Positions 1,306 through 21,363 of a DNA stretch of 23,789 bases are shown in pieces. Source of the stretch: a virus; the IMG/VR virus record IMGVR_UViG_3300044568_000839, positions 1 through 23,789 of that record; one strand, written 5' to 3'. Position numbers and translations under genes: made by a program. Position 1 is the first letter of the stretch, and every line of letters starts with the position of its first letter. Below the pieces are notes generated by a model that saw only the letters and a program-made list of their open reading frames with translations, was not told where the DNA came from and did not search any database.

Positions 1306-3647
1306 GCGTAAATTTTTCGTTATTGGCTGGCGCCGGTTGGCAATTTTTTACTGATGCTGGGGTTGTTTTAAGTGGCGGCAAGCTGTACACATACGCGGCC
1401 GGAACGACGACGCCCCAGACCACCTACACATCGGTTTCAGGGTCAATTGCAAACTCTAACCCAATAATTTTAGATTCGTCTGGCCGAGTGCCTGAGCAAA
1501 TTTGGCTGACCCCCAGCATTTCGTATAAATTTGTTTTGTACGATGCGAATGACGTTTTGATTTGGACCGAAGACAATATTTCAAGTGCTGATGATTTGGA
1601 CGCATTTGTTGCTGATTTGGCCAACGCATCGGACCCAGCAAAGGGCGACGCATTGGTTGGTTTTCGTCAATCCAATAGCAGCGGCAACCTTACTGGATCG
1701 GTCAACAGCACCGTCCACAAGAAACTGCAAGAGATTATTAGTTTTAAAGATTTTGGCGCAACTGGCGACGGTACAACAAACGACCAGGCTGCAATCCAAG
1801 CCGCGCTCTATGCTGCCAATGGTCAGATTATTGATGGGCAAAACTTAACTTACAAAGTAAATGCGTCGCTGGCTATTATTAATTCAAATACTGTTGTTCA
1901 AAACGCAACGTTTGATTTTTCTGATATGCCTGACGGCGCAGGAATTGACAGATGTTTGGATGTTTATGGAAGCATTGGAACAGCTGACCTGTTAACTGCA
2001 AACCTAAACATTAACTCAGCGACGGTTACGGTAACAAGCACAACTGGCTGGGCCGCGAATGACCTGGTGTTTTTAAAATCAACGACTGTTTGGGATTCTG
2101 CCTCGTCGGTAACTTACGGTCAGTATGCAAGAATCAAATCTATTGATTCCGCAACGCAAATCTCTCTTTATGAAGGCGTATTGCTTTCATTTACAACAGC
2201 GGCCAGCGCATCAATCGCAAAAGTCACACCCATTAAAAACATCAGTATTGACCATGTGACCTTTATTGGTAAAGACGCTAATTTGCAGAATGCGTTATAT
2301 GTCCAGTATGGCGAAAACGTTAGCATTACAAATTGCGAATTTATAAAATTTGATTATGCGGGCGTTGCATTTTTTCGGTGCTATAAGTCAACGATTGACA
2401 AGTGTAGACAGCGCAATGGGTCAGGCGTTGGGTTCAGCTATGGATATGCTTTGCTTGATGGATGCTACGCTTGCAGCGTCACTAATTCGTGGGGCGAAGA
2501 CAACCGACACACAGTCACCGTCGGCGGCAATACCGGCATCAATATGTTTTGTAAGATTATTGGCTGCAACGCCAATGGTTCAAAAGATGCAGGGTTTGAT
2601 TCCCATTCAGCGTCGTTAAATACGTTGTTCATGGGCAACCATGTTATTAACTCAGCCGCAAGATTTGGCGCAAGCGCACACGATGGCATTATTAGCCAGG
2701 GCGCAAACACCACAATCATCGGAAATACAGTTATTAATCCGTTAAATAATGGAATTTTTTACCAACCGGTGTTTCAGGACGGGACATATTCCGGCGCAAT
2801 TATTAGCGATAACACTGTTGTCGTTTCAGCAGCTGGCGATGGTTCTGTGGGGATTGGGATTTACATTCAATTATCCGCCACCACAGGTCCGACAGCGTTG
2901 AACGGGATTCTAATTAAAAACAATCGAATCTCTGGCGGCGACACAAACGCCAGTGGCGTGTACGGTATTTATGTACAGTCACAAAAAGCTAGTTCGACAG
3001 TCAACGGATTAATTATTGAGGGTAATTATGTCACGCTGGCCAACGCCACAACGGCCTACCCTTTATATTTGCGAACAAACGCTGCTGGCGCGGCTATTTC
3101 TAATGTTTCAATATCTAACAACACGCTAAAATCTGACAACCAAGATTACGCCATGTTTTTACAGGCGTCGAATGCAACGTCGTCAATTTCAAACGTCACC
3201 GGCACAAGCAACATTTTTGACGGTAATCTGTACTCAATAATTCTCAGCCCAACTGGCACCATTAGCAAATTAAGATTTAGCAAAAACATTTCTCTGGCGC
3301 CCGATTTTATTGATAACAACGGCGCAACTGATTACTTGTTCGATGACATAGACGCAGCTGGAATATTTACCGCAACGAACGCTACGCTTATCGACTTCAC
3401 CGAATACGATTGGTATATTTTCAACAGAGCCGGTACGGTAACCGTCACGCTGCCATCGTCCACTACGTCTAAGGGTCGCACACTTAACTTTAAAACGATA
3501 CAAGCGCAGACCGTTGTATCAGCGACCAGCAACGTGCAACCAATTAACGACACGGTGCTAGGCACGGCAATTCTGCCCGCAACCGACGGCGCCTGGGCGA
3601 CGTTGTATTGCAACGGCACCGATTGGGTCATCATGGCAAGGGGCTAA
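1302..3647 (+). CDS. Tailspike with pectate-lyase-type beta-helix
   Basis: A 781-residue tailspike. An upstream in-frame ATG at 1281 exists, but 1302 is preferred because it overlaps the previous stop (ATGA). Residues 1-100 form a virion-attachment region with SGGKLYTYAAGTTTPQTTYT (25-43) and SGRVPEQIWL, a pattern shared by many phage tailspikes. Residues about 147-170 (FKDFGATGDGTTNDQAAIQA) are the classic opening of the Pectate_lyase_3 parallel beta-helix, followed by several hundred residues of N/S/G-rich coils. The C-terminal about 90 residues (from DWYIFNRAGTVTVTLPS) look like a separate beta-sandwich or trimerisation cap. Such proteins bind and often cleave surface polysaccharide; the substrate cannot be read here. 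Confidence 0.85.
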   Translation: MSVNFSLLAGAGWQFFTDAGVVLSGGKLYTYAAGTTTPQTTYTSVSGSIANSNPIILDSSGRVPEQIWLTPSISYKFVLYDANDVLIWTEDNISSADDLDAFVADLANASDPAKGDALVGFRQSNSSGNLTGSVNSTVHKKLQEIISFKDFGATGDGTTNDQAAIQAALYAANGQIIDGQNLTYKVNASLAIINSNTVVQNATFDFSDMPDGAGIDRCLDVYGSIGTADLLTANLNINSATVTVTSTTGWAANDLVFLKSTTVWDSASSVTYGQYARIKSIDSATQISLYEGVLLSFTTAASASIAKVTPIKNISIDHVTFIGKDANLQNALYVQYGENVSITNCEFIKFDYAGVAFFRCYKSTIDKCRQRNGSGVGFSYGYALLDGCYACSVTNSWGEDNRHTVTVGGNTGINMFCKIIGCNANGSKDAGFDSHSASLNTLFMGNHVINSAARFGASAHDGIISQGANTTIIGNTVINPLNNGIFYQPVFQDGTYSGAIISDNTVVVSAAGDGSVGIGIYIQLSATTGPTALNGILIKNNRISGGDTNASGVYGIYVQSQKASSTVNGLIIEGNYVTLANATTAYPLYLRTNAAGAAISNVSISNNTLKSDNQDYAMFLQASNATSSISNVTGTSNIFDGNLYSIILSPTGTISKLRFSKNISLAPDFIDNNGATDYLFDDIDAAGIFTATNATLIDFTEYDWYIFNRAGTVTVTLPSSTTSKGRTLNFKTIQAQTVVSATSNVQPINDTVLGTAILPATDGAWATLYCNGTDWVIMARG

Positions 3648-16503: not shown

Positions 16504-16665
16504 ATGGATAAATTACAAGCAATCGAACGGGCTGGTACGGCTACGGCACTGGCTAGGCTATTGGGCATCACTCGCCAGGCGATATACCAATGGGGTGACG
16601 AGTTGCCGACGCAGAGATACTGGCAGCTGAAGGTGCTGCGGCCCGAATGGTTTACAAACCTGTAG
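16504..16665 (+). CDS. Cro-like helix-turn-helix repressor
   Basis: A 53-residue protein: MDKLQAIERAGTATALARLL, then GITRQAIYQWGDELPTQRYW. The AxARLLGITRQAIYQWG stretch is the helix-turn-helix of the P22 Cro / YdaS type (P22 Cro is 61 residues). An in-frame TTG at 16468 would add 12 residues but is itself the -35 box of P3, so ATG 16504 is preferred. No ribosome site precedes it, and the -10 box ends eight bases before the ATG, so the mRNA is probably leaderless. It is the likely ligand of the operators at P1, P2 and P3. Confidence 0.75.
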   Translation: MDKLQAIERAGTATALARLLGITRQAIYQWGDELPTQRYWQLKVLRPEWFTNL

Positions 16666-16807: not shown

Positions 16808-17554
16808 ATGCAGATAAAAAATTGGTCAAAGTTTCAACACTTTAAAGACCGTAAACCGCCCTGGGTGAAGTTGTACAGGGAATTATTGGATGACATTGAA
16901 TGGCACCTTTTAGACCCAAAGGCCGCTAAAGTTTTGACAATGCTGTGGTTGATAGCAAGTGAATTTGACGGCAAATTGCCAGACAATAAAACTTTGGCAT
17001 TCCGTTTGAGATTGTCTGAAACAGAAACAAAAACAGCAATTTCTAAGCTGTCTCATTGGCTGATACAAGATGATATCAAGACGATATCAAAACAATATCA
17101 AGATGATAGTCTAGAGACAGAGACAGAGACAGAGAGAGAGAAAGAGACAGAGAGAGAGGTTAGCAAACCGATTTCTGCGAAATCTCAATCCACCAGATTG
17201 GCTGATGATTGGCAATTGCCAGATGATTGGGCGATATGGGCAAAAGAGAATCGGCCAGAATTAAACCTGAATCAAATTGCCGACGGGTTCAAAGATTATT
17301 GGATTGCCCAACCAGGTGCCAAAGGCCGCAAGGCCGATTGGTTTGCAACATGGCGCAACTGGATACGCACCCAGAAATTAAGCAAGCAGGACAAAGTTTA
17401 CGAATCGCCCTGGCAAAAGGCGGCGCGTTTACGCATGGCCGAGTTTGCACCAGGCGTGGCCGCTAAAGACCCTAATTCAGCTGCCGTCATCGACATGGAG
17501 TTTTTTAACAAACCACAGGAAATCAAAAATGGCACTTCCAACAGCAGCGATTGA
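16808..17554 (+). CDS. O-like replication initiator (wHTH + DnaT-like C-terminus)
   Basis: A 248-residue protein. Residues 1-85 are a winged-helix-type DNA-binding domain (NWSKFQHFKDRKPPWVKLYR, then LAFRLRLSETETKTAISKLS). Residues 85-118 are a polar linker with ETETETEREKETERE. Residues about 131-188 (DDWQLPDDWAIWAKENRPEL, FKDYWIAQPG, DWFATWRNWIRTQ) match the C-terminal domain shared by DnaT-like and phage O-like initiators, which contacts helicase loaders or single strands. The next gene is a lambda P-like loader overlapping by 26 bases. The linker-coding DNA carries tandem repeats and a purine tract (see the origin entry), as lambda O does. Confidence 0.75.
   Translation: MQIKNWSKFQHFKDRKPPWVKLYRELLDDIEWHLLDPKAAKVLTMLWLIASEFDGKLPDNKTLAFRLRLSETETKTAISKLSHWLIQDDIKTISKQYQDDSLETETETEREKETEREVSKPISAKSQSTRLADDWQLPDDWAIWAKENRPELNLNQIADGFKDYWIAQPGAKGRKADWFATWRNWIRTQKLSKQDKVYESPWQKAARLRMAEFAPGVAAKDPNSAAVIDMEFFNKPQEIKNGTSNSSD
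17062..17159 (+). other. Candidate replication origin: 11-bp iterons plus purine tract
   Basis: Four tandem units lie at 17062-17104: GATACAAGAT, GATATCAAGAC, GATATCAAAAC and AATATCAAGAT, then a partial GATAG. From 17113 to 17159 the top strand has 43 purines in 47 bases and no T. Lambda ori is likewise four iterons followed by an A/T-rich, strand-asymmetric segment inside the O linker. The order and location are the same here; the repeat length (11 instead of 18) is not. Confidence 0.5.
17113..17159 (+). repeat. Purine-rich low-complexity tract (GAGACA / GAGA)
   Basis: Tandem GAGACA units followed by GAGAGAGAG, AAAGAGACAG and AGAGAGAGG. It encodes an acidic/basic Glu-Thr-Arg linker in the O-like protein. 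It may serve as the easily melted or strand-biased part of the origin. Dinucleotide and hexanucleotide runs like this also gain or lose units by slippage. Confidence 0.7.
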
Positions 17555-17972
17555 TCGTTTGTTTGACCGGCTGGCGATGTCATATGGTGCCGAGTTTACA
17601 AACAAGTGGGGAACTCTTGGTAGCGCCGAGGTTAAATCCCATTGGGCGCACGAACTGGGTATTTTTGTTGACAACTTGCAAGCTATCGGCTGGGCATTGA
17701 AAAACTTACCAGCCCGTTGCCCAAACTTAATTGAGTTTAAAAGCCTATGCCGCCAGGCGCCGCGGCCGGATATGAAGGCATTGCCACCGCCCAAAGCGAA
17801 TCCTGAAGTGGTGGATAAGGAATTGTTAAAAATTGTTCAGAAATTGGCAAAGCCGGTAACCGACAACGTTGACCACAAGCGTTGGGCTAAGAAATTAAAG
17901 CAGCGGCATGAGAAAGGCGAAAACCTTTCAATGTTTCAAATTAAATGCTACAGGGAAGCGTTGGACCAATAA
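17529..17972 (+). CDS. Lambda P-like helicase loader
   Basis: A 147-residue protein. Start ATG 17529 gives MALPTAAIDRLFDRLAMSYG, which resembles the N-terminal part of the phage replication protein P family (IDxLFxRL, then KWGTLGSAEVKSHWAHELGI and PNLIEFKSLC). P-family proteins deliver the host DnaB helicase to the O-bound origin. The C-terminal half is Lys-rich and charged. Lambda P is 233 residues, so this is a short version. It overlaps the O-like gene by 26 bases, which is the expected coupling of the pair. The ribosome site is weak (ACAGGAAATCAAAA). Confidence 0.65.
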   Translation: MALPTAAIDRLFDRLAMSYGAEFTNKWGTLGSAEVKSHWAHELGIFVDNLQAIGWALKNLPARCPNLIEFKSLCRQAPRPDMKALPPPKANPEVVDKELLKIVQKLAKPVTDNVDHKRWAKKLKQRHEKGENLSMFQIKCYREALDQ

Positions 17973-20388: not shown

Positions 20389-21363
20389 ATGGCTACCCAG
20401 CTGTCGCAACTAGCAGCGGCTGGGCAGCAACCACAGGCGCCACAAGCACCGCAATCGACGCAAGCTAGTCTTGCGTCAATGGTGCCACAGCCACAGCTGC
20501 CCCAGACCGGACAATTGGCAACGCCCCAAGCTGGGCGGCCGACCATGCCACAAGCCGGACAATCGAATAATCCAATTGAATCCGCGTATTTTGATCGCCT
20601 ACAGAACGATTATTCTGGCCTGGCGGCTGAGTATTCTCAATTGCCGCAAACAGACAACGGGCGCATTCTCAATACTGATGATGCCCGCGAAATGTCCCCA
20701 GAGTATCGGGCTGACCGAACTAGATCGGCTGATGTGCACGAACCGTCGTCAGCGTTTGTAAAACAGATGTATGCTGAAAAGCTGTCGCAAGATACCCCGC
20801 CAGGCAAAAGTAATACTGTTGTGTTCACAGCTGGCGGCACAGGGGCGGGCAAAACAACGGGTTTGCAAGAGGCGCAAAAGGTCAATCAGAATATTAAAGA
20901 TTCAGAGATTGTTTACGATACAAACATGAATTCGTTTGACTCTGCCGATAAGAAAGTGGAACAAGCGCTGAAGGCCGGACGCAACGCCAGCATTATCTAC
21001 ACTTACCGCGACCCAGTTGAATCCATGGAAAACGGTGCATTAAAACGCGCCAGCCGCATGGAAGCCGAACTTGGTACTGGTCGAACCGTGCCAATCGACG
21101 AACATTTCAAGACTCACGCAGGGTCGCGTGAAGTCATGGAACAGCTGCAATCTAAGTACGGAAACGACCACCGATTTCATTTGATGGTTATTGATAACAG
21201 CCGCGGCGCGGGTAAAGCCGCGGTGGTAAGCGGTCTTGACAAATTACCCAAGTTGGACCATACTGTAGTAAGAAAGGGGTTGAATGATGCACTCGAAAAT
21301 GCCTACAAGTCTGGAAAAATCAGCCAAGCAATCTACGAAGGAACGCGCGGCAACGCCCGCTGA
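20389..21363 (+). CDS. Zeta-toxin-like P-loop kinase with PQ-rich N-terminus
   Basis: A 324-residue protein. Residues about 12-60 are Pro/Gln/Ala-rich (QQPQAPQAPQSTQ, VPQPQLPQTGQ), and 61-140 are polar. TVVFTAGGTGAGKTTGL holds a Walker A motif (G149-T156). YTYRDPVESMENGALKRASR, then GRTVPIDEHFKTHAGSREVM and LMVIDNSRGAG, are typical of zeta-toxin-like kinases of the type seen as domains in large phage and mobile-element polyvalent proteins. Zeta enzymes phosphorylate UDP-activated amino sugars. No clear epsilon-type antitoxin lies nearby. The PQ linker resembles those of the ejection proteins, so packaging and injection are possible. Confidence 0.7.
   Translation: MATQLSQLAAAGQQPQAPQAPQSTQASLASMVPQPQLPQTGQLATPQAGRPTMPQAGQSNNPIESAYFDRLQNDYSGLAAEYSQLPQTDNGRILNTDDAREMSPEYRADRTRSADVHEPSSAFVKQMYAEKLSQDTPPGKSNTVVFTAGGTGAGKTTGLQEAQKVNQNIKDSEIVYDTNMNSFDSADKKVEQALKAGRNASIIYTYRDPVESMENGALKRASRMEAELGTGRTVPIDEHFKTHAGSREVMEQLQSKYGNDHRFHLMVIDNSRGAGKAAVVSGLDKLPKLDHTVVRKGLNDALENAYKSGKISQAIYEGTRGNAR

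Follow-up and report, generated by a model that had tools for sequence, protein, structure and literature searches.

Origins of replication that lie within the gene for their own initiator are known in detail for few replicons (lambda, pSK41). The lambda ori occupies the middle of the O gene and has its iterons beside an AT-rich tract (PMC7466680), one strand of which holds nearly all the purines (PMC5043065). In pSK41, the ori is central in rep and codes for a linker; the N-domain of the protein binds the repeats and its C-domain resembles a primosome protein (PMC5703833). The window analysed here is the whole of IMG/VR record IMGVR_UViG_3300044568_000839 (23,789 bp), a complete record of a phage contig. 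Positions 17072–17159 of this window are very probably a phage replication origin, set within the stretch of its own initiator gene that encodes the linker.

The initiator gene (16808..17554, plus strand) codes for 248 aa and was assigned from PHROG matches together with an AlphaFold2 model. The protein comprises a winged-helix N-domain (aa 1–89), a disordered linker (90–125) and a helical C-domain (about 139–190). Its N-half matches phrog_26426 (replication protein; E 3.6e-19, aa 3–147), as do 60/60 members of the initiator family, and its C-half leads to phrog_1408/3992, replication initiation/primosomal. In the model, built on a 60-sequence alignment, pLDDT is below 50 at linker residues 90–125. 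The repeats and the tract described below take up codons 89–118 of the 248 and fall inside this predicted disordered linker, where the sequence-only reading had already placed them. The DnaT DNA-binding domain (PF17948) was found in 7/60 relatives with a best E of 2e-05, the window initiator itself giving primosomal PHROGs only. A fold search of the C-domain against the PDB returned no match, which is not evidence of a new fold.

Upstream of the initiator lies the gene for a Cro-like regulator (16504..16665, plus strand; Pfam P22_Cro 2.2e-12; start assumed at an internal ATG). Downstream lies a P-like gene, a candidate helicase loader of 147 aa (17529..17972, plus strand), with a weak match to phrog_1524 (E 0.03); the same PHROG finds lambda P, again weakly (E 0.013), and orf5 of Xanthomonas phage PBR31 (6.8e-05). 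The downstream gene is not conserved among relatives. Recombination genes of the ERF and YqaJ types (Pfam) are found on the opposite strand, left of the initiator, and the arrangement of the early region is therefore lambda-like. The window further contains a 324-aa ORF with a Zeta-toxin-like kinase domain (20389–21363, plus strand; Pfam 5.7e-13).

The likeness to lambda extends to the element itself: in both cases the middle of the initiator gene holds a four-unit array followed by a strand-asymmetric purine-rich segment, with cro upstream and a P gene (here the P-like candidate) downstream. However, the lambda iterons are 18 bp long and spaced 20–24 bp, whereas the repeats here measure 11 bp, and the lambda segment is 78% A+T compared with 50% for the tract in the window, the purine asymmetry being common to both. 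Alignment of the window initiator with lambda O by hhalign gave a probability of 0.3%, i.e. no homology was detected, and the protein matched neither an O-like PHROG at E up to 0.1 nor the Pfam replication-O family. Some relatives do match the O-like PHROG 345/678, in the checked ones via the C-domain only. Membership of the lambda O family was thus rejected, as there is no detectable homology, the iteron length differs and the A+T-rich segment is absent. Consequently, the earlier description of a lambda-style origin in an O-like gene holds for the layout, with purine hexamers, not rich in A/T, in place of the A/T-rich segment, and "O-like" is retained by analogy only.

RepA_N initiators (pSK41 Rep) likewise carry the repeats centrally in the gene, the ori-coded stretch being the linker, but their hosts differ, these being Firmicutes plasmids. 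The N-domain fold scores Z 5.2–5.6 against the RepA_N structures 5kbj, 4pql, 4pt7 and 4pta, tied with LexA and other winged helices, and the RepA_N domain PF06970 gave no Pfam match in the 60 members at E up to 0.01. By analogy with the two systems, the element in all likelihood works like lambda ori or pSK41 ori.

Homologous N-domains are found in two named phages. The product of orf004 in the cultured phage PBR31 has an N-domain 66% identical to that of the window initiator and a perfect 3x GATATCA array with the tract, joined to another C-domain; the PBR31 paper remarks on distant O/P homology but makes no mention of an origin or of iterons. Iodobacter phage phiPLPE gp04, annotated 'putative replication protein' (phrog_26426), has an N-domain homologous to that of the window initiator, and its linker contains an 11-bp array of its own, GCTAGCA, which differs from the repeat in the window, together with a purine tract. 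Its C-domain is different and a DnaC-type gene stands downstream. No origin is reported in the phiPLPE genome paper, and a related-locus scan with the phiPLPE protein as query gave no matches.

The array in the window consists of three RATATCA-N4 units at exact 11-bp spacing (starts at 17072, 17083 and 17094) with a degenerate fourth at 17105, and the core GATATC is a 6-bp palindrome (6–7-bp core) repeated with an 11-bp period. Iteron 1 (GATATCAAGAC, 17072..17082, plus strand) has GATATC in 100% of 50 dereplicated class members, which were selected for the array. It is followed by iteron 2 (GATATCAAAAC, 17083..17093, plus strand) and by iteron 3 (AATATCAAGAT, 17094..17104, plus strand), which has one core mismatch, most relatives having GATATCAA at this place. 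The sequence-only reading had counted four tandem units of 10–11 bases, the first being GATACAAGAT (17062..17071, plus strand, 10 nt). The three units at 17072–17104 stand, and the real fourth is the degenerate GATAGTCTAGA (17105..17115, plus strand; consensus GATNNNCYAGA), the position and phase of which are kept in relatives. The unit at 17062 is doubtful and may represent a degenerate upstream half-unit; it is weakly conserved in relatives (consensus TGGAACAAGAT, 54–92% per position). TRF independently detected a period of 11 at 17062–17108 and of 6 at 17113–17158, and the RATATCA-N4 triple (≤3 mismatches) had 0 matches in 100 dinucleotide shuffles of the window.

Adjoining the iterons is a tract of purine hexamers, (AGAGNN)n, with the sequence AGAGACAGAGACAGAGACAGAGAGAGAGAAAGAGACAGAGAGAGAGG (17113..17159, plus strand; 47 nt; TRF period 6). 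The 47-base purine-biased tract described beforehand is the same stretch, refined here to an AGAGNN hexamer repeat rather than a mere purine bias. Like the triple, the AGAGNN pattern was absent from all 100 dinucleotide-shuffled versions of the window, and no 44-mer elsewhere in the window is purine-richer than those inside 17113–17159. The tract is 91% purine on one strand and 50% A+T, with a duplex stability slightly below that of the surrounding DNA; duplex instability alone therefore cannot be its role. Averaged over 41 loci, the profile shows no A+T-rich unwinding region next to the array, and the tract is not a classical unwinding element. A role in H-DNA/triplex or R-loop formation also appears less likely, because C, T and G occur at the variable positions and one tract is inverted. 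The latter belongs to locus L070 (L070:3001–3615), where the tract codes for SVSVSVS and the GATATC array is enlarged.

Codon usage was compared among 30 N-domains of <90% identity, with relatives gathered by protein and not by DNA pattern. In this set, codons in the array and the tract are all but invariant: GAT 21/21, ATC 21/21, ATA 20/20 and TCA 19/21 (the last two in iteron 2), GAG 28/28 and ACA 20/20. Relative to a background of 0.32, ATC has a log10P of −10.3, and the corresponding values for ATA and GAG are −11.1 and −7.0, although such comparative counts include related sequences, which are not independent trials, and most of the loci come from metagenomic fragments. Outside the array and tract, conserved residues of the N-domain mostly show the expected codon variation. 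A codon simulation, in which 0.13 of 50 arrays were expected to persist, points in the same direction but is biased, since the set took in loci chosen by DNA pattern. As the 11-bp period is not divisible by three, GATATCA passes through the three reading frames in turn along the array, which accounts for the conserved peptide DI..IS..YQ. The array is in another phase in L094, and in L110 it is present twice in tandem, duplicated by 33 bp. When phage contigs were scanned for the triple repeat, this linker accounted for about 74 of the 80 matches listed; the linker matches were on the strand of the gene, with the purine tract nearly always after the array. By these comparisons, the repeats and tract are a conserved cis-acting DNA element, selected as DNA and not as a protein feature.

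Phage contigs were also scanned with the tract sequence AGAGACAGAGACAGAGACAGAGA alone, which yielded at least 80 loci. Among the matches listed, the 62 nt preceding the tract had 11 bp as their best period in 66/77 (86%), compared with 11/76 for ETETET in other codons and 9/68 for an (AAGGAC)n tract (13–14%). The tract is translated as ETETET in most of the listed loci, as RDRDRD in about six (L279, L280, L288, L290, L313 and, less certainly, L286) and as QRQRQR in L323 and L330, both of them uncertain. These observations bear on the reading that an acidic low-complexity linker, ETETET together with DI..IS..YQ, is functional as a peptide. Most members do encode ET/ER/EK repeats and this peptide, yet such a reading has next to no probability: it is already contradicted by the frozen codons of array and tract, other codings of ETETET in phage contigs lack the 11-bp excess, and several relatives translate this DNA as RDRDRD, while L070 has it inverted.

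Conservation as DNA leaves the question of which part of the protein goes with which repeat. For genes selected by tract or by protein, pairs in the 70–90% identity band were compared with respect to repeat class. N-domain pairs in this band shared the class in 1238 cases and differed in 0, and for C-domain pairs the corresponding numbers were 703 and 188. For example, L109 and L275 have C-domains 83% identical and differ in repeat class, and the GATATC array is found joined to C-domains of several families. L016 and L017 combine a wholly different N-domain with a like C-domain type and have another 11-bp array (AACGCAT). Thus, across the sequences compared, the repeat travels with the N-domain and not with the C-domain; physical linkage may contribute to this pairing, since N-domain and array adjoin on the DNA. 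In L016, L017, L028 and L031, which share the C-domain type but whose N-domain is unrelated, the linker contains 11-bp repeats and a 14-bp A-rich repeat.

C-domains are thus exchanged against N-domain and iterons, the two parts joining at the tract, and belong to mixed families. This shuffling would fit an element kept mainly as a recombination site for the exchange of initiator domains, the tract providing shared homology. That explanation is very unlikely, as it leaves the initiator-specific 11-bp arrays and their pairing with the DNA-binding domain unaccounted for, and shuffling can in turn follow from a shared tract.

The arrays upstream of the tract in the at least 80 tract-selected loci comprise GATATC, GCTAGC and others. 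The rarer ones include GATCGCAAACG x4 (L270) and GTAACGAAACC (L315) and, with other periods, GATAGGGCTAT x3 at 12 bp (L300) and GCAAGCATCC at 10 bp (L309). Proteins with unusual arrays matched replication initiation, primosomal or helicase-loader PHROGs in 10/10 cases. Three control matches (L513, L547, L562) turned out to be initiator genes in which 11-bp arrays precede AAGGAC/AAGGAT tracts and not AGAGAC; the layout may therefore extend beyond AGAGNN and be general, with several purine tracts. An exact search for GCTAGCA x3 (class B) gave 7 matches, none in an open frame, and was of no use because class B repeats vary. Among 369 bacterial genomes belonging to a single class, the tract matched once, within repetitive ET-rich coding sequence that has no array. 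Unrelated N-domains have their own 10–12-bp iterons directly upstream of the same tract, which would point to a common recogniser other than the iteron-binding domain. We tentatively suggest, at somewhat less than even probability, that the AGAGNN tract acts as an origin element common to many tailed phages and independent of the initiator, with a recogniser that they share. Candidate recognisers would be the helicase loading machinery, a host factor or a single-stranded-DNA-binding step comparable to the DnaA-trio. A purine tract common to unrelated initiators seems undescribed so far; no description of array or tract was found in the open-access literature, most subscription journals lying outside the search.

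The GATATCA repeat also occurs beyond this family. In bacterial genomes, 2/44 triple GATATCA matches were this element and the rest were mostly other things. Arrays without an open frame, often near gene starts and tract-less, were seen in the bacterial loci L206, L213, L214, L224, L225, L232 and L236, possibly as the operator of some widespread regulator. In L204 (Aeromonas tecta), more than 15 tandem 11-bp GATATCARAGC units are present on the minus strand at about 3234–3410. The array in the window might likewise be read as an operator rather than an origin, used by the initiator or by a repressor to control its own early transcription, given that many of the 11-bp GATATCA arrays outside this family are intergenic near bacterial gene starts and operator-like. 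We consider this unlikely: the array is located well within the gene, about 260 bp in, the purine tract comes directly after it, and it persists through C-domain swaps. Moreover, none of the operator-like bacterial arrays shown has the tract, and iterons placed inside the gene serve as origins in lambda and pSK41 (PMC7466680, PMC5703833).

With the origin reading, the winged-helix N-domain would occupy adjacent 11-bp GATATCA repeats along a single face of the helix. The resulting nucleoprotein complex would distort the adjoining strand-asymmetric purine tract, exposing one strand or allowing its capture. Together with the P-like protein or with host factors, the C-domain would bring the replicative helicase to the tract. 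We infer all of these steps, from binding, tract opening and helicase loading to origin activity, from comparison. In the four complete relatives, the GC-skew minimum lies 0.4 kb from the array in MW202462, 1.2 kb in PBR31 and 7.7–8.5 kb in MW202640 and DC33; being close in two of the four only, and confounded by gene orientation, skew is of no help as an origin marker. The sequence-only reading had proposed an origin in the linker with iterons unlike those of lambda, and the frozen synonymous sites, the use of three frames, the pairing of N-domain and iteron and the tract-selected loci all argue strongly in its favour.

On the same comparative basis, many other phages share the layout with different repeats. 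At least two repeat classes are well populated (GATATC, GCTAGC), several others are rarer, and the classes pair with N-domain types. As the layout is readable from sequence alone in many uncultivated phages, it could serve for origin prediction, replicon grouping and incompatibility prediction. The natural swaps of N-domain and repeat provide material for working out how the initiator domain reads its repeats, and the layout raises the question of what role a common purine tract has when it is not A+T-rich. The initiator gene is unannotated in the GenBank entries of two relatives, L251 (MW202462, 1027–1725) and L252 (MW202640, 2001–2630). For Limnohabitans phage DC33 (PQ492659; L247/L259), the taxonomy line Inoviridae is a misfit, as the phage has a 39-kb circular genome, a peptidase lysin and very large genes.
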